Below are positions 4,283-57,872 of a stretch of 64,000 nt of DNA, in pieces (position 1 is the stretch's first letter; every line of letters begins with the position of its first letter). The notes below the pieces were generated by a model, which saw only the letters and a list, made by a program, of their open reading frames with translations, was not told the origin of the DNA and did not search any database. The DNA is from Planctomycetota bacterium (GTDB lineage: Bacteria > Planctomycetota > UBA1135 > GCA-002748355), in the NCBI GenBank assembly GCA_011321845.1, contig DROQ01000055.1:1-64000 (forward strand), in the 5' to 3' direction. Position numbers and translations under genes: made by a program.

Positions 4283-7218
4283 TTCTTCGCCTCCAGGACC
4301 AAGGTCACCTTGGTGACTCGGGATCCCCGCTTGAGAGTCAGGTCGATGCTCTCACCCGGGCCAAAAGCCTTGAGGGCCCTTCGGAACTCCGCGCAGGTCC
4401 GAATGGGGTAGTCGTTGACGCGGACGATCATGTCGTCGGGTCGGATCCCCGCCCGTTGGGCAGGGGAGTCGGGAAAGACGCGGTCTACATAGGCTGGGGG
4501 AGAGCGCCGTCTTCCGGTGTCGAAGAGTTTGATCCCGGTGTAGACAGGAGCCTTGGCCTTGGCCCGGAGAGACCTGGCCGCGAGGTTCTTGGCCAGACTG
4601 CGATCGCCCAGGCAGAGGGCGACAAAAGGCGCCAGATCCTCGGCCGGGATGGCGAGGGAGAGCTGGGTGTTGGTCTCCCGCGACTCCACGAGAGGGGTCA
4701 ACATCCCCACGAGCTTGCCGTCCGTAGTGAAGAGCCCTCCCCCCTGCGTCCCAGGGTTCGAGGGCGCGTCCGTCAGGTAGACCCGCCCCTTGTAGGGGAA
4801 CTTGCGGAGATTCAGGCGCAGATCCGAACGCAGGCTCCCGGTGATGACACCCTCCACAACGGTGACCCGCTCATCGAATTCGGCCAGCTTGAAGGCGTTC
4901 CCCATGGACCAGACATAGGTCCCTGGTGGAAGCTCCCGCTTCTCTCTGGGAATGGGGATGGGTCTCAGTTCTTGCTTGCCCGGATCGATCTTGAGCATGG
5001 CGAGGCCCAGTTCCTCGGCCCGCCGATAGATCCTCGCCTCGTGGATGCTTCCGTCGGCCAACACGACCTTGATCTGGCCCGGCTGCAGCATGATGTGATC
5101 CCAGGTGAGAATGAACCCCTTCTTGGAGACGATCAGGCCCGAGCCATACCCTTCGACCCCCTTGAGGCCGCTCGCCCCCACGATCTTGACGACCGATTCC
5201 AGGAGAAGCGCGAGGGCATCCTCCATCACCGAGCTGGGCCGAGGGAGCTTTTGCTCCAGGATACGAAAACCAGGGAGACCGGCGCTGAGAGGATTTCCTT
5301 GGGGAACTTCCCAGGTCTCCACCAGAATCTTGTCCACCCGCTTCTCGAAACGGAGAGGATAGAGGAGGGCATTCCCACCTTCCTTCCACGAGGTCGCCAC
5401 CACTTCGACAAGCCCTCCATCGGCCGGGCTCCGGTAACGGCAACCCACGGGCACAAAGCGCTTGCCGTCGATGTAGAGGGCGCGTTTCCCTGGGCCTCGC
5501 AGTGCAAGAACCCAAACCGGAGTCCCAGCGACAAAGGCCCCCCCCTCGACGTAAGCATCCTTGGGAAACCCCTGGGAGGTGACGGGATCCAAGAAGGGAA
5601 GGAGGGAGCGCTCCCTCCTAAGGGTCACGAGCTGGTCTCCCTTGTTTTTCATTTCCGCAAGGGCGGCCGAATCCAGTGTAGTCCCCCGGTAGCTCCGTAA
5701 GATCCGGGGACCATCGAGTTCCCAGGTTCGCTCGTAGCTCCCCTTCCTGGAAGGGACCTGGACCATGAGCCGGACCCTCCTCTTCTTCCCCTCCCCCTTG
5801 GGGATCCGGGCGAGCACTCTTTCCCGGAGCCAGGAGACAACTCCATCCATGTAGAGGAAGAGACCCTGATCCCGCTCCAACTCCGCCACGCTGGGACCGG
5901 TCTTTTTCACCTTGACCTTGCCCCGGAACTTCCTGGGGATCTTCCCACGCCAGCCCTTGGGCAAAGCCTTTTTCCACCCCTTGGGGACATCGAAGCCCTT
6001 GGGGAGGACCAGGTCTTGGAGAGAGAGGCGTCGGTTCTTTTCCCTCTCCTCCCGCTTTTTTGCCTCGGAAATCAAGCGGGCAAAGTCGGGTCTCCTCGAG
6101 AAATCGGGCACATTGGGCCTGGGGTTGCGGTTGGAACCCGTGGGGAGAGCTGCCAGAGGGAAACGCGCGTGTCGGACAGGGCCGTAGGATCTGGTTCCTT
6201 CGTCGAAACGACGGTAGCCGATATCCACAACGAAACCCGCGGGAAGTCGCCCCGTCCACTTGCCGAGCTGGTTCGCGGTGCGCACCCTGCGTCCATTGAA
6301 GGTCAAAATCTCATCCCCCAAGCGGATCCCATGCCTCCAGGCAACCGAATCCTCGAACAGGGCCTGGGCGAAAACCCCCCTCCGCCCCCCCATGTTGGGA
6401 TCTTCCATGGTCCATGCGCTCATGTCACTGGTCCCATGTTCGCAGTGTTTCCCGGCGAGCAGATCCGGAAGGAAGCCCTTGATCTGCTGGATGCTCACTG
6501 CGAAACCCGCCCCGGTGTTCACCCGGCCCCGGTCCCTGATCGTAATCCGTCCGTTGATCCCGACGAGGAGACCATTTTCATCGAAGAGCGGCCCCCCGGA
6601 GTTCCCAGGGTTGACCGCCGCGTCCACCTGGACGCAGTCGGGGTACATCAGCATCCTCCCATTGGGTCCCGTCCCCTTTTGGAAGCGGTGGATGCCCGAG
6701 ACGATCCCTGCCGTCACCGTCGGTTTGAAGTCGGTGGCCAGGAGAAAGGGATTGCCCATGGCATAGACGAAGCCCCCGAGCTTGAGCTTGTCGGAGTCGC
6801 CGAGAATGGCGTGGGGCCATGTCCCGTCCGGGTTGGTTCCCTTGCCCCGGAGGGCGCAGAGAGCGATGTCTCCCCCCGGATCCACCCCGATGACATCCGC
6901 GAGATAGAACTTGCCATCGGGGAGCCCGATTTTCATGACCTTGTTGGTCGTCACGACGTGATAGTTGGTCAGGATCCAGCCCTTGGGGGAAATGATGACA
7001 CCCGACCCCCCTCCCGGCCGGCTGAGAGACATGACCGCGCAAACTGTGGGTTCGAGCCGGGAGATGAGTTCCGTCCGGGCCTTCTCCGCCGCCAGCACGA
7101 GGTCCAATCCCAGTCGCTCATTTCGAGGCCCGTCCCCAACCTGGGGAGGAACGGAAACCGCACCCACAAGACCCAAGAGTGAAAGCGTAGAGACGACCGC
7201 CAGCAATCCTGTTTTCAT
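4279..7218 (-). CDS. Secreted protein with two HtrA-like trypsin domains and PDZ domains; first domain canonical, second degenerate
   Basis: Domain 1: GWILTNYHVV, GGDIAL, NPGNSGGPL, followed by PDZ. Domain 2: GFILTWDHIM, ELGLAML, NPGTQGGGL, followed by PDZ (PDSPAQRAGIRPDDMIVRVND). N-terminal signal peptide. ATGA overlap with the downstream gene. Confidence 0.88.
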   Translation of the reverse strand: MKTGLLAVVSTLSLLGLVGAVSVPPQVGDGPRNERLGLDLVLAAEKARTELISRLEPTVCAVMSLSRPGGGSGVIISPKGWILTNYHVVTTNKVMKIGLPDGKFYLADVIGVDPGGDIALCALRGKGTNPDGTWPHAILGDSDKLKLGGFVYAMGNPFLLATDFKPTVTAGIVSGIHRFQKGTGPNGRMLMYPDCVQVDAAVNPGNSGGPLFDENGLLVGINGRITIRDRGRVNTGAGFAVSIQQIKGFLPDLLAGKHCEHGTSDMSAWTMEDPNMGGRRGVFAQALFEDSVAWRHGIRLGDEILTFNGRRVRTANQLGKWTGRLPAGFVVDIGYRRFDEGTRSYGPVRHARFPLAALPTGSNRNPRPNVPDFSRRPDFARLISEAKKREEREKNRRLSLQDLVLPKGFDVPKGWKKALPKGWRGKIPRKFRGKVKVKKTGPSVAELERDQGLFLYMDGVVSWLRERVLARIPKGEGKKRRVRLMVQVPSRKGSYERTWELDGPRILRSYRGTTLDSAALAEMKNKGDQLVTLRRERSLLPFLDPVTSQGFPKDAYVEGGAFVAGTPVWVLALRGPGKRALYIDGKRFVPVGCRYRSPADGGLVEVVATSWKEGGNALLYPLRFEKRVDKILVETWEVPQGNPLSAGLPGFRILEQKLPRPSSVMEDALALLLESVVKIVGASGLKGVEGYGSGLIVSKKGFILTWDHIMLQPGQIKVVLADGSIHEARIYRRAEELGLAMLKIDPGKQELRPIPIPREKRELPPGTYVWSMGNAFKLAEFDERVTVVEGVITGSLRSDLRLNLRKFPYKGRVYLTDAPSNPGTQGGGLFTTDGKLVGMLTPLVESRETNTQLSLAIPAEDLAPFVALCLGDRSLAKNLAARSLRAKAKAPVYTGIKLFDTGRRRSPPAYVDRVFPDSPAQRAGIRPDDMIVRVNDYPIRTCAEFRRALKAFGPGESIDLTLKRGSRVTKVTLVLEAKK

Positions 7219-8618
7219 TGTTCCAAAATCCTCAGGTCACCAAGGATGACCGCAGCCCCCGAATCCAACATAAAACTCCCTTTCAGCTCGAGGACAAGGC
7301 GGTCCACCCTCTCGACGGAGACACGCAGTTCTCTGGCCTTTTCCCCCGCCTTCAACTCCAGTTCATCCAAAAGGGGTTTTCCGTCGGCGAGGATGCGCAG
7401 TTTGACCAGGCCCTTGTTCCTCGAAACCAGGCCGACCTCTCCCAGCAAAAGACCCTTCTTTTTCCCTAGTGGTATCTCGAGGTCCAAGTTGGGCACCAGC
7501 CAAAACCCATGCCGGAACTTTTTGCGGCCCAGCTTGAGGGCTCTTCCGGCAGGGGAATGGTCCCTGAGAATGGGCCATTTCCGATCGAGCGTGGGAGTCT
7601 GCGTCACCTGGATCCCCGACATCATGGAGACAAAGTGCACCCGGGTCGAACCAAACTCCACCTCCCGGATGAACCGGGATCCAAGATGCAGCTGGAAGCC
7701 TTCGAGGGTTTGAAATACCCAGTTCCCTCCGGAAGCCGCTGAGAGCAACCGTCCCTGGAGAGTGCTGCCATTGGTCAAAAGGATCCGGTCCACCGCAACC
7801 CCCTTGGGAGCCACCGCTTCAATCCCCGAGCCCTCGGCCATGACTACCCCATAGACCTTCTTCATGGGAAGGGTTCGCTCCTTTCCTCCTACCTGGAGGA
7901 GGAGGCTGGGGGCCTTGCCAGCGCCCCCCCTGCCACCTCCCAATACCTTGCAGGGGATTCTTCGCACCATGGGTCTGCCGTCCTTGGCCTTCCCCTTCAG
8001 GTAGAAACAGAGGTCGGACTCGAGGGGAGGAGCAAGCAGAGTCCGGGTAAAGTTCGCGTCCCGGGTTCTTCGGGCCCTATCCTTGTCCCTGGTTCCATTC
8101 TTGGTCTCGGAGTTCTCGTCCCCCTTGTTGGAGGAAGGAGCCAGAGCCCGCCTCCGAAACCCCTGAAGATACTCTATGGGGATTTCGACGATGTTTCCTC
8201 CGCTCACTCGAAACCTGAGACTCCCCTTGGCCCCTCCCAAGCATTCTCCCTGGAGGATTCCCCCGCTCCGGAGCCGAAGAAACCCGGAGGAGGGAAACTC
8301 CAATCCCGCAACCCCTCCCACAGAAGAATCCTCCTCTCCAGGGAGAGCAAGGATCCAGGCTTCACCCGGGGCCAGTTTGAGATTCCTTCCCTCGGCCTTG
8401 CCCCGAAAACCCTCTTTGAGGGCATAGGTCCACTCCGAAAGGAAAAGGCTCTCCCCGGAGAAGGTCCTGAGACGCACTGCAAGATCCGAGGGAGCAGATA
8501 GGGGGAGCATCGCCCGCGGATGCATTCCGACCGAGATCGAATCCGGATGGCCCGGTCCCGTGGAAATCCAGGGGACGAGGAACAGAGGAAGAGAGAGGTA
8601 GAACCCTGACTTGTTCAC
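7215..8618 (-). CDS. Secreted protein with C-terminal NPCBM/NEW2-like carbohydrate-binding domain
   Basis: C-terminus LKIRILADGKPLLDELELKAGEKARELRVSVERVDRLVLELKG...GDLRILEQ resembles NPCBM; GTG start inside a GTGA overlap with the upstream gene. Confidence 0.65.
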   Translation of the reverse strand: MNKSGFYLSLPLFLVPWISTGPGHPDSISVGMHPRAMLPLSAPSDLAVRLRTFSGESLFLSEWTYALKEGFRGKAEGRNLKLAPGEAWILALPGEEDSSVGGVAGLEFPSSGFLRLRSGGILQGECLGGAKGSLRFRVSGGNIVEIPIEYLQGFRRRALAPSSNKGDENSETKNGTRDKDRARRTRDANFTRTLLAPPLESDLCFYLKGKAKDGRPMVRRIPCKVLGGGRGGAGKAPSLLLQVGGKERTLPMKKVYGVVMAEGSGIEAVAPKGVAVDRILLTNGSTLQGRLLSAASGGNWVFQTLEGFQLHLGSRFIREVEFGSTRVHFVSMMSGIQVTQTPTLDRKWPILRDHSPAGRALKLGRKKFRHGFWLVPNLDLEIPLGKKKGLLLGEVGLVSRNKGLVKLRILADGKPLLDELELKAGEKARELRVSVERVDRLVLELKGSFMLDSGAAVILGDLRILEQ

Positions 8619-52640: not shown

Positions 52641-53273
52641 TTAGTTCTCGAAACGCAGGACGTGGAAAGCCTTCTTGATCCAGGGTTTCGCCTTCTTGTA
52701 GTCGTCGTAAAGGAAAACCACGTAGGCGTCGGCCTTGTCGTTGGCATGGAGGGCGAGGACGAACAGGCCCTTCTTCCTGGTGTAATCGGGGTTGGGAACC
52801 TCTGCCGCCGCTGAGGCCCAATCCGCGCGGAAGGAAGCCAGAGCCTCCTTGGCGAACTGCTTCTTGGCCTCCACCCCATGGCCCGAGATCCGCTGCAGGA
52901 TGGTCTGGTACATCATCGAGAAGATGTGGTTGGGCTCGGGGGCCGCGGAATGGGGGTCCCTGTATTCGATTCGGATCTGCTTGAGTGGGCGCAGGGAGAG
53001 CCGAACCTCCAAACCAGAAGCCCTGTGATAGAGACTCCACTCATAGGGGAGCAGCTCGTTGCTCCGAGGCGCGACCTCCTCGAAACCTTGGGGAAGAGTG
53101 TAGACCATGCGGGAGGCGGTGAGGAGTTTCTCGAAAGCCACCCTCGTCTGTTTGGAGGGGGGAACCAGGGGTGGGTTGCCTTCTTCGGCTCGGACATCGC
53201 AACTCCCCAAAGCCAGCATCAAAGCCAGCGAGAAACTCCCCAAACAGGGAATCCCGCGATCTCCCTCTCTCAT
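52641..53273 (-). CDS. Hypothetical lipoprotein
   Basis: MREGDRGIPCLGSFSLALMLALGSCDVRA lipobox-like; start at 53273 gives an ATGA overlap with the upstream gene. Confidence 0.6.
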   Translation of the reverse strand: MREGDRGIPCLGSFSLALMLALGSCDVRAEEGNPPLVPPSKQTRVAFEKLLTASRMVYTLPQGFEEVAPRSNELLPYEWSLYHRASGLEVRLSLRPLKQIRIEYRDPHSAAPEPNHIFSMMYQTILQRISGHGVEAKKQFAKEALASFRADWASAAAEVPNPDYTRKKGLFVLALHANDKADAYVVFLYDDYKKAKPWIKKAFHVLRFEN

Positions 53274-54037
53274 TTCCCCCCCTTCTTCTCCACCTCTCCG
53301 GCCTTCCAGGCAGCAATCGCTTTTTTGGCCATCTCTTGCTGTTTTGGGTCCTTTGTCAGTTCGGCGTATTTCTTCATATCGGCGATCGCATCGCTCCGAC
53401 GACCGAGAGCCCAATAGACAAAAGCCCGGGTCCCATAGGTTTTGGCGATCTCTGGTTCAGCCTTCTCACAAAGATTGTATTCCTTTAAGGCTTCGGCAAA
53501 GGCCTTCTTGCCCGCGAGCATCCTGGCCTTGAGAAAATGGGCGGGATAGAAGAGGGGCTCGAGGGAAATGGCCTTGTCCAAGTCCTTCATTCCGGAGTCA
53601 TAGCGTCCGAATTTAAAATACAAAAAAGCCCGATTGACAAGGAAGCGGGGATCATTGGGGCTCAGCGAGACAGCTTTCTCCCGGTCCGCGAGGGCCTTTG
53701 TGAACTCCTTCCGTTCCACCAGGATGGAGGCACGAGCATCATAGAATTCCGGGCGATCGGGATACTTTTCGATTCCCATCGCCAGGTGCAGCAAAGCATC
53801 GTCGAACTTCTTGGCGTTGAAATACCGCATCGCGATTTCGAAGAGCGTCTCGGCCGACAAAGCCCCATGCACCGAAGGGTCCCCCACCTCCGGGTGCTTT
53901 GCCTGCGCCTTCTTTTCGGTGCCTTTTTGAGCCGTCGGCCTGGATCGGGCACCCGAGGTCTTGGCCTGGGCGGCCCCGGGTCCCTGGCCGCAGGAACCCA
54001 GCGCAAGGAGGAGTGGAAGGAAAAGGAGCTGCTTCAT
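53270..54037 (-). CDS. TPR lipoprotein
   Basis: MKQLLFLPLLLALGSCGQG lipobox; TPR-like repeats (ALLHLAMGIEKYPDRPEFYDARASILVERKEFTKALADREKAVSLSPNDPRFLVNRAFLYFKFGRYDSGMKDLDKAISLEP). Confidence 0.8.
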   Translation of the reverse strand: MKQLLFLPLLLALGSCGQGPGAAQAKTSGARSRPTAQKGTEKKAQAKHPEVGDPSVHGALSAETLFEIAMRYFNAKKFDDALLHLAMGIEKYPDRPEFYDARASILVERKEFTKALADREKAVSLSPNDPRFLVNRAFLYFKFGRYDSGMKDLDKAISLEPLFYPAHFLKARMLAGKKAFAEALKEYNLCEKAEPEIAKTYGTRAFVYWALGRRSDAIADMKKYAELTKDPKQQEMAKKAIAAWKAGEVEKKGGK

Positions 54038-54076
54038 AGGATCCAGCATATCCCCGAGAACCGAGGAGAAGAGATA

Positions 54077-54154
54077 AAAGGGGAGCCGGACAGGGGCTTC
54101 GATGTGCCGCCATCCGGCTCTCTTTTTTGCCCGGAATCACCAGGTTCCGGGCAA
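54077..54154 (-). terminator. Double hairpin downstream of the cytochrome gene, second hairpin followed by a T-containing stretch
   Basis: 10-bp stem TTGCCCGGAA/TTCCGGGCAA (54127-54136/54145-54154) just after the stop; then 8-bp stem GAGCCGGA/TCCGGCTC (54083-54090/54113-54120) followed on the minus strand by CCCCTTTT. Confidence 0.6.
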
Positions 54155-54158
54155 GCAA

Positions 54159-56684
54159 TCATTTACCAGCCTTTTTCTTTTCGAAGTAGGCCTTGAGCAC
54201 ATTGTTCATGAGTTCGATGTGCTGTTCATCGGTGAGCTGACCGGGAGTGGAGACTTTGCCCCAGAGTTCCTCGTTGGTCATCTCACGGTGGCAACCCATA
54301 CAAAGTCCCGTCCTCTTCATCCCCTTCCGCATCTTCTCGGTCAGTGCGCGAGAGAGGGGCCAGTGGGTTCCGACGGTCTGCACCTGGTTCCCATCCTTGT
54401 CAATAATGGTGGAAAGGTCGAAGGTCAGGCCGGGGACCTTCTGGATCTGGATCGAGTACTTCTTGGGAATCGGTTTCCCAGTCTTTTGATCGATCAGATC
54501 TTCGACGATCTCCTCGGCATAGCGATGCTGGAAGACCCCGCCCGAGATCCCATACCCCATGGCCTTGGGATTGTTGTGGCAGCTTTCGCAGGTTCTGGCC
54601 TTCCGCTGGGCGGAGTGGGGCTGGACGGGAGCCATGTCGATCCCGAGAGGAACCCGGCTCTGTCCCAGCTCCCTGGCTTCGTCTTCGGACCGGGCGATCT
54701 GGTTGTGGGTCCTCGTCTTTCCGTCCCTGCCGATCACGGTGACAATCACCTGGCAGCCGGGCATGAGAGGCGTCACACGACCCTCGCCATTGATCCCGAG
54801 CACAGGCTCCTCCCAGCGCAGGTAGGAGCGGGTTTCGAAGCACTTGCCGGGGCTCTTGATCCCCGGAGTCCCCAAGGAGGACTCAGCCGTCTGTCCATTG
54901 GAGAAGCGCTTGCTTCCCGAGGCGATCCAGTCCACGTCGCTGTAAGGCTTGCCGCTGGGGTCCTTGCCATAGTTGACCGCCACATGGCAGCCGTAGCACT
55001 GGGGAACCCAGGAGGAATGGCAAGCATAGCATTCGAGGCTCTCGTTGTGCTTTTTGACCTTGGACATGGCCACCTTGGCGTCCGGGCTCTTCCAGCTGTT
55101 GTCCAGGTTGATCTGCTTGAGGACCGGGACCTCGAAGTCGTTCCCGGTGGCCGAGTGGAGGATGACCTTGTTGCCATCTTTGACCACATTCCCAAAGGGG
55201 TTGCCGCGTGCCGTAAGCAGGTAGCCGTCCTTCTTGTCATATTTGGTGGCAAAAGCGACGGTCTCGGGGAGAGCTTCGTCCGCGAGCCCCCTGCCCTTGG
55301 TCCCGATGTCCTTTTGGAACTCCTCGCCATAGCCCACGGGCAATTCCCAGGGGAACTTGTCAGGGGTGCCATGGCAGTCCTGGCATTCGATCTCCACCTG
55401 CGCGAGGGTGGTCCCGAAGATGTTTCCATCCCCGTGCATGTCGATCGTGGTGTGGCAGTCCTGGCAGAGCATCCCCCCCTTGGGATTGCCCGGTCGGCTC
55501 TGGATCTGGTGATGCAGATCGTCCGAGATGAACAGATACTTCTTGGTGTGGAGCTTGGGCTGTTTCTTGCCCTGGGGGGAGAAGGGGCTCCCATAGGGGA
55601 ACTCCATCAGACCCTGGTAGGTCACACCGATGCGCTTGCCACGGTTGTGACAAGAGTTGCAGGTCTCCACGGGGATCCCGTTCCCCGCCTGCCTTGTTCC
55701 ATGGAGGCGATGGGTCAGGAGATGCCCGGGCTCGTCCTTTTTGATCGTGGGGTCCTTGCCCTCGTAGAAACCGTTGTTGCTGTAGAGCATGTGGCAGGCC
55801 GAGCAGCCCATCCCGCGGTAGTCCCCGCGTTTTTCCCGTCCCCTGACAGCGACGTGGCATCTCTGGCACTGCTGCCTCTGGTAGGTGAACCCGGCAAGTT
55901 TCGGATCCTTCTCGATTTCTTCCACGCTGGGCTGGGGCACCTGCTTGAGTTCCGTGGGGAACTGGTCGGGATGGTCCGCGATCATCCTGGCCATATAAGC
56001 CTTGTAGGTGTCGGTCCCTACGATGGGTTCTCTGCCATCCTCGTCCTTGATGTCGTAGTTGCCCCAGGGAACTTTGTGGTTCTGCACCTCGGGAATCCCC
56101 CAGGTATGGAGGTTGCCCTGGATCTTGCCGGCTTCGGTGTTCATCAGGGCTTTGGACAGGCGCGCGACATAGCCTGGGTGGCACTGTCCACAGGTGTTGT
56201 TGGCGATCCAGATGCTTCCTGGGTCGGGATAGAACTCCTTGGGACCAGCGGGGGACATGTTTTTGGGAACTCCCTTGTGAGCCTCTTCGGCCGTCGTCGC
56301 CTTGGGATTTCCCCCGTGGCAGACCACGCAACCCGCGGGGTCGCCGTAGACGGCTCCCATCCCCTCGATCTGGGTCATCATCAGGCTTCCCTTCTCGCGA
56401 ATCGAGGCCAGCCCCTCGTGGCAGCTGAGACAACCCTTTTCCTCGGCGAGGGCCTTGGTGGTTGTCCTGAGGTTAGCGGCGGGACTGGAGTTGTTCCCCG
56501 TCCCGGAAGTGTTCCCTCCAAGGGAGGGCATGGTTGCGTTTGCAGGGTTGTGATAGGGCTTGGCAGCCTTGCTTTTTCCCGCTCCGGCCTTGTCCTCTTT
56601 CCCGCAGGCGGGAAGGAGGACGAGGCTCATCAGGGCGGCAAAGGTTGACATGCCTATCAAGAGCTTGCGACCTCGATTCAGCAT
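54159..56684 (-). CDS. Multiheme c-type cytochrome lipoprotein with 12 CXXCH motifs
   Basis: Lipobox-like LVLLPACGKE; CLSCH, CVVCH, CGQCH, CQRCH, CSACH, CNSCH, CQDCH, CQDCH, CYACH, CYGCH, CESCH, CMGCH counted in the translation. Confidence 0.92.
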   Translation of the reverse strand: MLNRGRKLLIGMSTFAALMSLVLLPACGKEDKAGAGKSKAAKPYHNPANATMPSLGGNTSGTGNNSSPAANLRTTTKALAEEKGCLSCHEGLASIREKGSLMMTQIEGMGAVYGDPAGCVVCHGGNPKATTAEEAHKGVPKNMSPAGPKEFYPDPGSIWIANNTCGQCHPGYVARLSKALMNTEAGKIQGNLHTWGIPEVQNHKVPWGNYDIKDEDGREPIVGTDTYKAYMARMIADHPDQFPTELKQVPQPSVEEIEKDPKLAGFTYQRQQCQRCHVAVRGREKRGDYRGMGCSACHMLYSNNGFYEGKDPTIKKDEPGHLLTHRLHGTRQAGNGIPVETCNSCHNRGKRIGVTYQGLMEFPYGSPFSPQGKKQPKLHTKKYLFISDDLHHQIQSRPGNPKGGMLCQDCHTTIDMHGDGNIFGTTLAQVEIECQDCHGTPDKFPWELPVGYGEEFQKDIGTKGRGLADEALPETVAFATKYDKKDGYLLTARGNPFGNVVKDGNKVILHSATGNDFEVPVLKQINLDNSWKSPDAKVAMSKVKKHNESLECYACHSSWVPQCYGCHVAVNYGKDPSGKPYSDVDWIASGSKRFSNGQTAESSLGTPGIKSPGKCFETRSYLRWEEPVLGINGEGRVTPLMPGCQVIVTVIGRDGKTRTHNQIARSEDEARELGQSRVPLGIDMAPVQPHSAQRKARTCESCHNNPKAMGYGISGGVFQHRYAEEIVEDLIDQKTGKPIPKKYSIQIQKVPGLTFDLSTIIDKDGNQVQTVGTHWPLSRALTEKMRKGMKRTGLCMGCHREMTNEELWGKVSTPGQLTDEQHIELMNNVLKAYFEKKKAGK

Positions 56685-56717
56685 TTTGGAACCACCTTAT
56701 GTTTGGAGTAGAGATCC

Positions 56718-57872
56718 TCAGAATTTGAAGGTGAAGTCCGCGCGGAAACGCCAGCGCAGATCATCGTTGGCCGAGGTGGACCCGTCTTCGAGAGAGACCG
56801 CGCTGCCCCAGAGATGCATCCCCAGGTTCTTCATGAGGCCTTTCTTCCAACCGAAGACATGGCCCGTGAAATTGGTCGCCAGGAGGAAATCGTCCTGAAC
56901 CAGGGGGGAGTAGACAGAGTCCTGCCCGACCACCATGTACTGGTAGTAGAACTTGCCAAGAGGCTTTTTGGGGGAGCCATAGGCAATGCCCAGGGCCCAG
57001 CCGGTGTCGTCCACCGAATCCGCGGCGTCGGTGTTCAGGAAGAACTCGAGCCCCACGGTGAGAGGGTTCTCCATCCCGGTGTAGGTGAAGGAGAAGATGG
57101 GGTGGATCAGGGTGAACCTGGAGCTGAAGTCGTTGGGAGTCCCGCCGGTTGTGGCGTTGCCCCGGTTGGCGGAGACAAGCGCGGTGCTTCCGTCAGGGGA
57201 CTGGTCCCCGAAGTAATAGAAGGCCAGGGAGGCCGCACCCTTCATCTCGTCGTTGAATTGGAGATCGGCAGCAGCTTCGGCAAAGAATGCCGTGGCATCT
57301 TCGGCGCCGGACTGCTCGAGGACCATGTATTCCCCCGCGATGAAGCGGTAGTTGGTGATCACCGAATCCTCGACCTTGCCGGAATACACGCCCGCAATCC
57401 CCTCCGGGTTCAGGTCGGCGTCGAAGACCAACTCCCCATAGACCGGGTTCCTCTTGGCGGGATGCCCGAACTTGCCGGCGACCAGGGTAAACCCTTTGAC
57501 CTGTTCAGGAGAATAGGTGACGTAGAGGCGGGAAAGGTTGAATTCGAAGTTGTTGAAGCCTCCCCCGAGATCCTGGTAGGGGCTGGTCGGGGTATTGGGG
57601 TTTCCCGTCCGGACCCGGGCATGCAGCCCGATCTGCTCATTGAACTCGTGGTCCAGGTTCAAACGAAACCGCATCCGCTGACGATGGCGATCTCTCTGGC
57701 CGGGGACCTTGAAGTTGGATTCCCAGCGGAGCCGAAGATCGCCGGAGAACTTGAGGGGGGACTTCGTCTCTTCCTTGGGAGCCTTGGCCTGTCCCATGGC
57801 CTGGCCGCCAAGACCGAGCATTGCAACAACCAAGCCCCACTGGGACCATCGAGAAAAGGTGGTGTAGTTCAT
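56718..57872 (-). CDS. Putative outer-membrane porin
   Basis: Signal peptide, GGAGG 5 nt before ATG; alternating amphipathic strands (LRLRWESNF, QRMRFRLNLDHEF, IGLHARVRTG, NFEFNLSRLYVTYS); C-terminal aromatic RWRFRADFTFKF. Confidence 0.75.
   Translation of the reverse strand: MNYTTFSRWSQWGLVVAMLGLGGQAMGQAKAPKEETKSPLKFSGDLRLRWESNFKVPGQRDRHRQRMRFRLNLDHEFNEQIGLHARVRTGNPNTPTSPYQDLGGGFNNFEFNLSRLYVTYSPEQVKGFTLVAGKFGHPAKRNPVYGELVFDADLNPEGIAGVYSGKVEDSVITNYRFIAGEYMVLEQSGAEDATAFFAEAAADLQFNDEMKGAASLAFYYFGDQSPDGSTALVSANRGNATTGGTPNDFSSRFTLIHPIFSFTYTGMENPLTVGLEFFLNTDAADSVDDTGWALGIAYGSPKKPLGKFYYQYMVVGQDSVYSPLVQDDFLLATNFTGHVFGWKKGLMKNLGMHLWGSAVSLEDGSTSANDDLRWRFRADFTFKF

Follow-up and report, generated by a model that had tools for sequence, protein, structure and literature searches.

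The 64,000-nucleotide stretch of contig DROQ01000055.1 analysed here (the window) comes from a deep-sea planctomycete, whose genome is labelled G000 and that of its sister G001, and it encodes an outer-membrane porin followed by a multiheme cytochrome. A porin gene beside a multiheme gene is often taken as an extracellular electron conduit, and a previous reading of the sequence alone (the sequence-only reading) had interpreted the pair in this way. In our analysis the pair appears closer to a redox enzyme supplied with substrate through a pore than to an outward electron wire. Barrel size, a basic strand cluster and cytochrome-free relatives can together tell such a substrate pore from a conduit. 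The features of the locus are as follows:

56718..57872, minus strand: 16-strand outer-membrane porin, Porin_5 (PF16930), 384 amino acids (aa) (Pfam, AlphaFold2 model, Foldseek)
54159..56684, minus strand: dodecaheme c-type cytochrome, probable lipoprotein (Cys27), distant ExtM relative, 841 aa (12 CXXCH, match to NF040943, conserved heme sites)
57663..57689, minus strand: arginine ladder R62/R64/R66/R68/R70 on strand 2 of the porin (invariance in 26 homologues, placement on model strands)
57405..57470, minus strand: long porin loop L3, residues 135-156, between strands 5 and 6 (predicted local distance difference test score, pLDDT, about 90; invariant D151, D153 and P156)
54753..54755, minus strand: codon of cytochrome Cys644 (PGCQ), the only invariant cysteine outside the heme motifs
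54050..54158, minus strand: double hairpin, probable terminator or attenuator (-53.3 kcal/mol, z = -4.78; counterpart in G001 with stem and U7)
53270..54049, minus strand: TPR lipoprotein whose gene recurrently follows that of the cytochrome (Pfam TPR; homologues directly downstream across loci)
52641..53273, minus strand: small, lipoprotein-like secreted protein outside known families (its gene overlaps that of the TPR protein by ATGA)

The porin open reading frame starts at 57872 with an ATG preceded by GGAGG and its product ends in ...FTFKF, in agreement with the strong Shine-Dalgarno sequence and the C-terminal aromatic residue described in the sequence-only reading, which had also located both reading frames correctly: the cytochrome gene begins at 56684, 33 bp past the porin stop codon. 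The double hairpin reported downstream is likewise real. At the same site, G001 carries a different sequence with a classical stem followed by U7, which makes a terminator 3' of the cytochrome gene likely and suggests that porin and cytochrome are probably encoded on one transcript. The sequence-only reading overlooked two downstream genes on the same strand, those coding for the TPR protein and the small secreted protein. The other neighbours of the pair in the window code for ATP-binding cassette transporters, a NUDIX protein and a TypA-like GTPase.

The porin belongs to Porin_5, the sole Pfam family assigned to it (66.3 bits, gathering cut-off 22); no NCBIfam model matched, and phmmer and profile searches against the PDB gave nothing useful. 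An AlphaFold2 model with 26 homologues in the input (mean pLDDT 86.6) showed 16 strands, in line with the suspected beta-barrel but not with one of MtrB size. The top solved match in Foldseek was OmpM1 of Veillonella, followed by MOMP, OprB, OmpE36/OmpC, AlgE and Omp32, and no MtrB-type barrel was present among the 50 matches listed. The residues invariant in the 26 homologues were mostly arginines on strands, plus acids in loops; R49, R62, R64, R66, R68, R70, R86 and R375 were all invariant and located on strands 1-3 and 16, and the further arginines accompanying the ladder were R47, R49, R86, R115, R375 and R377. In classical porins the constriction loop sits between strands 5 and 6, and an arginine strand cluster together with an acidic long loop constitutes the eyelet layout of diffusion porins, which favours anions. 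L3 would probably fold inward, and the porin is predicted to be a 16-strand anion-type diffusion channel.

The cytochrome contains exactly 12 CXXCH motifs, the number originally counted, all in one frame (mean of 0.03 in shuffled sequence), and no second CXXCH cluster was found anywhere in the 64-kb window. Its lipobox, LLPAC with Cys27, has an unusual Pro at -2; relatives of the same clade carry regular lipoboxes, and proteobacterial relatives have a plain signal peptide without a lipobox and look periplasmic. The top NCBIfam match was ExtM (NF040943, 233.8 bits, E = 3e-69), with three colinear matched stretches spanning model positions 33-539 of 599 and an equal number of hemes (12). The MtrC/OmcA model (TIGR03507) matched at chance level (E = 0.058) and the DmsE/MtrA model (TIGR03508) was not among the NCBIfam matches at E <= 1. 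Comparison with multiheme families therefore yielded no MtrA- or MtrC-like protein, the nearest curated relative being Geobacter ExtM, at a score well below its cut-off. The AlphaFold2 model of the cytochrome (pLDDT 80.5, predicted template modelling score 0.82) matched no solved structure in Foldseek, which is weak evidence because irregular multiheme folds are hard for this program; phmmer and profile searches against the PDB gave nothing useful, NrfA at E = 0.13 being a lead only, and a plasmid search returned weak partial matches only.

A contig scan across genomes detected 329 related stretches, 80 of which were kept for the family analysis. These originated from Planctomycetota, Pseudomonadota, Bacteroidota, Campylobacterota, Thermodesulfobacteriota, Aquificota, Gemmatimonadota, Deinococcota, Nitrospinota, Chloroflexota, Poribacteria and Dadabacteria. 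With relatives at 45-91% identity in more than 10 phyla, and up to 70-79% identity between members from Planctomycetota, Gammaproteobacteria, Alphaproteobacteria and Bacteroidota, the cytochrome is not the lineage-specific protein it had been suggested to be. Single host labels are uncertain, since many relatives are metagenome bins; by name, the hosts include the sulfur-cycle lineages Sedimenticola, Thiosymbion, Ruthturnera, Thiotrichaceae, Halothiobacillaceae and Desulfobacula, and the family occurs in numerous bacteria of vents and sediments as well as in symbionts that oxidise sulfur. We found no paper naming this dodecaheme family, and the libraries searched assign it no function.

All full-length members among the 80 homologues kept the 12 heme sites, site 3 being CXXCH, CX3CH or CX4CH. 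In the core family, eleven histidines outside the motifs were conserved and a further one, His193, was present in 77% of the sequences; once 15 distant planctomycete 12-heme homologues were added, seven (His136, 325, 391, 417, 546, 690 and 822) were near-invariant, so that a conserved distal histidine is not available to all 12 hemes. Of the 96 dodecaheme sequences, 95 have Cys644: all 81 of the core and 14 of the 15 distant ones. The 10/11-heme cytochromes of the same order (L007-L030) resemble the window protein with 22-30% identity over hemes 1-11, but lack heme 12 and, with one exception among the 24, the lone cysteine. As all other conserved cysteines bind heme, Cys644 is, as judged from the alignments, the strongest hint at chemistry over mere conduction, and it offers a direct experimental handle on function. 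In those 10-heme relatives (L007-L025) that were inspected, the C-terminal part is a long region of repeats that may form a beta-propeller. Stand-alone 12-heme homologues with 39-50% identity (L162-L176) occur in distant Planctomycetota families, many of them with lipoboxes; the copy in genome G358 has one in-frame TAA, and no porin, TPR or small-protein neighbour was found beside the distant planctomycete 12-heme homologues with 39-42% identity.

Gene neighbourhoods were compared across 86 loci (83 after removal of duplicates), although many contigs stop too early to show the downstream genes. A TPR protein is encoded directly downstream of the cytochrome in 51 of the 86 loci (48/83 deduplicated) and a small secreted protein after it in 41 (39/83), always on the same strand, making the two the commonest neighbours of the cytochrome across phyla. 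The three-gene form also exists in a culturable relative, Thermopetrobacter, and an undecaheme/TPR locus described for Tenderia electrophaga is a lead for comparison. The small secreted protein of the window matched no Pfam or NCBIfam model; its family, which is tied to the cytochrome across phyla, has the motif Y-x-D-P-H and a later W, H and D, with F47, Y104, D106, P107, H108, P112, P114, W152, H176 and D182 invariant. In Arcobacter-type loci (L083-L086, L093 and L109), as judged by reading the sequences, two small thioredoxin-like proteins replace the TPR and small proteins after the cytochrome, and several of these loci add a flavin oxidoreductase that resembles the sulfide dehydrogenase flavoprotein. 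A Porin_5-type porin was linked to the cytochrome in 14 of the 83 loci and in three gene arrangements: porin-cytochrome-TPR-small protein, as in the window, cytochrome-TPR-small protein-porin (L056 and L088), and a divergent one (L047, L055 and L064). Eleven of these 14 loci fell among 16 that make up a single clade or were assigned to it by similarity, as was the fragment L088; the clade comprises Planctomycetota, Gemmatimonadota, Bacteroidota, Poribacteria, Dadabacteria and three proteobacteria, and most of the porin-linked cytochromes in it carry a lipobox. A Fisher test of linkage by clade was not taken as proof, since its rows are related to one another. The recurrence of the association in several arrangements makes a functional link between porin and cytochrome plausible.

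Gene order, the 12 heme sites, the predicted fold class of the porin, the arginine ladder, the recurring gene set and the lone cysteine are the observations from which our interpretation starts. We tentatively prefer, as a possible explanation, that the locus encodes a 12-heme oxidoreductase that is anchored in the outer membrane, acts on soluble oxyanions, probably of chalcogens, and is fed by an anion-type porin. The cytochrome would be a member of a widespread family of 12-heme oxidoreductases with distant kinship to ExtM, held on the outer membrane in this lineage by its lipid anchor and most likely facing the periplasm. Periplasmic carriers would hand electrons to it, and these would travel along the heme chain, which would give electrons to, or take them from, a small soluble substrate, probably with Cys644, the invariant cysteine, and a poorly ligated heme as the reaction site. 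The best guess for the substrate is a chalcogen oxyanion, for example selenite, tellurite or a sulfur oxyanion; both substrate and direction are guesses based on the kinship with ExtM, on the lone cysteine and the arginine ladder, and on host names. The neighbouring porin may admit the substrate, as ExtI is thought to do for the ext cytochromes, and the TPR and small secreted proteins would be regular partners, perhaps in assembly or docking. A broader and, as a whole, unlikely proposition is that these cytochromes represent a new class of 12-heme oxidoreductases for chalcogen oxyanions, spread widely by transfer, with a reaction centre that uses a lone invariant cysteine at or near an open heme and with a TPR and a small secreted partner, and that members anchored in the outer membrane have been combined time and again with an anion porin of their own.

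Several results weigh against the preferred oxidoreductase. The ExtM score of 233.8 bits lies well below the equivalog cut-off of 800, and as no solved structure matches the cytochrome, the idea of an active site draws on conservation. No SoxB match was found in G000, which gives no support here to a link with Sox-type sulfur oxidation, and SoxB co-occurrence is uninformative, as 0 of 392 Planctomycetota pass the cut-off, below which the model catches other nucleotidase-like proteins. Porin homologues were present in 22 of the 61 genomes searched in the same order, and just four of these 22 (G000, G001, G034 and G040) have a clear cytochrome copy; in at least 18 the porin stands without the cytochrome and beside unrelated genes, and the porin may thus be an unrelated housekeeping channel. 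The porin tree likewise intermixes linked and unlinked planctomycete porins, suggesting separate recruitment, so that the link would have been made repeatedly and not inherited as a unit; the idea that porin and cytochrome form a single inherited unit was rejected on this ground, and the planctomycete porins appear to have been recruited locally (the unlinked porins were sampled from this order only, and the recruitment count is a minimum for it). These same cytochrome-free porins, the mostly porin-free cytochromes and the conservation of 12 heme sites and most non-motif histidines in the core family would also suit a respiratory electron carrier or store, periplasmic or anchored in the outer membrane, that performs no chemistry and adjoins a generic channel by chance. 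We consider this explanation a serious if doubtful one, given that repeated linkage to a porin in several arrangements is unlikely to arise by chance, and that an invariant lone cysteine and 70% residue conservation across phyla suggest more than a wire. That the cytochrome is a lipoprotein on the extracellular face, trading electrons with solids or partners independently of the porin, is very improbable: the lipid anchor in its clade, relatives in hydrothermal and sediment bacteria and the repeat regions of the distant 10-heme relatives would be in keeping with such a role, whereas the proteobacterial relatives with their plain signal peptides look periplasmic.

The conduit originally proposed, of the MtrAB or porin-cytochrome conduit (PCC) type, in which a porin that holds the lipoprotein cytochrome, or lets it pass, would bring electrons across the outer membrane, could account for the tight gene spacing and the probable shared transcript ending in hairpins, for the lipid anchor and for the recurrence of porin linkage in a clade whose cytochromes are usually lipoproteins, and multiheme proteins are abundant in the genome. 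We nevertheless judge it improbable. The barrel has 16 strands, a long L3 and an arginine-rich strand cluster and best matches general porins, the MtrB model is unmatched in the genome, the cytochrome lies outside the MtrA/DmsE family, no second, OmaB-like small periplasmic cytochrome is encoded in the window, and most cytochrome homologues have no linked porin. Moreover, a pair on contig C33 (L178) is the better conduit candidate of this genome. Its first gene (4712-6340, plus strand) codes for a cytochrome with 18 CXXCH that scores above the cut-off of the DmsE/MtrA family (252 vs 192 bits). The second (6334-8574, plus strand), which overlaps the end of the first, codes for about 746 aa that include three CXXCH near the N-terminus and a long stretch resembling a beta-barrel, unrecognised by the Pfam barrel models. 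Homologues of this barrel protein were present in 5 of 7 other genomes of the same family searched; in the four with a readable flank, a cytochrome with at least 11 to 16 CXXCH is encoded directly upstream and shares the C-terminal ending HGSNRNR/HGSQRHR with the C33 cytochrome. Judged by sequence, the C33 pair looks like an unrecognised heme-fused MtrB-like conduit.

Other multiheme loci of G000 include a 671-aa protein on contig C150 (L181, 6788-8803, plus strand) whose 25 CXXCH are regularly repeated and which scores slightly above the cut-off of the nanowire_3heme domain model (TIGR04257), a 431-aa octaheme cytochrome on contig C36 (L179, 5730-7025, plus strand) with a weak hydrazine dehydrogenase match far below cut-off, and a cluster on contig C71 (L183, 1-3998, minus strand) coding for a tetraheme protein, a probable iron-sulfur protein, a multi-pass membrane protein and a second tetraheme protein, which resembles a quinol-oxidising multiheme complex.

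Among known systems, MtrAB, MtoAB and PioAB share with the window an outer-membrane barrel adjoining a multiheme c-type cytochrome, but their barrels have about 26 strands as compared with 16, the MtrB/PioB barrel model (PF11854) had no match in the whole genome, and MtrA is of the DmsE/MtrA family, to which the window cytochrome does not belong. The Geobacter PCC (OmbB-OmaB-OmcB) likewise combines a porin with a 12-heme lipoprotein, and the window cytochrome has 12 hemes and a lipobox with Pro at -2, its MtrC/OmcA match being at chance level; the small periplasmic cytochrome of the OmaB kind has no counterpart in the window. The ext cluster of Geobacter (extHIJKLMNOPQS) encodes the 12-heme ExtM and, in the same cluster, the porin ExtI, and is associated with selenite and tellurite; deletion of ExtI lowered Se0 and Te0 formation to 30% and 25%, respectively, and left Fe(III) citrate reduction unaffected (PMC5877670). 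Another study counts extHIJKL among several putative conduits that contribute little to metal reduction (PMC6148476), so that even in the ext system any role of the porin is putative. ExtM and the window cytochrome share 12 hemes, colinear homology over most of the model and a porin encoded alongside; the window protein differs in its score (234 vs 800 bits), in being a probable lipoprotein and in having TPR and small-protein neighbours, and none of ExtH, ExtKL, ExtN, ExtO, ExtP, ExtQ or ExtS is encoded by the neighbouring genes in the window. Finally, general diffusion porins (OmpM1, OprB, OmpC and Omp32; Porin_5) resemble the window porin in having 16 strands, a basic cluster on the strands and a long loop that joins strands 5 and 6; unlike them, the window porin is linked to a cytochrome, here and in some other genomes.

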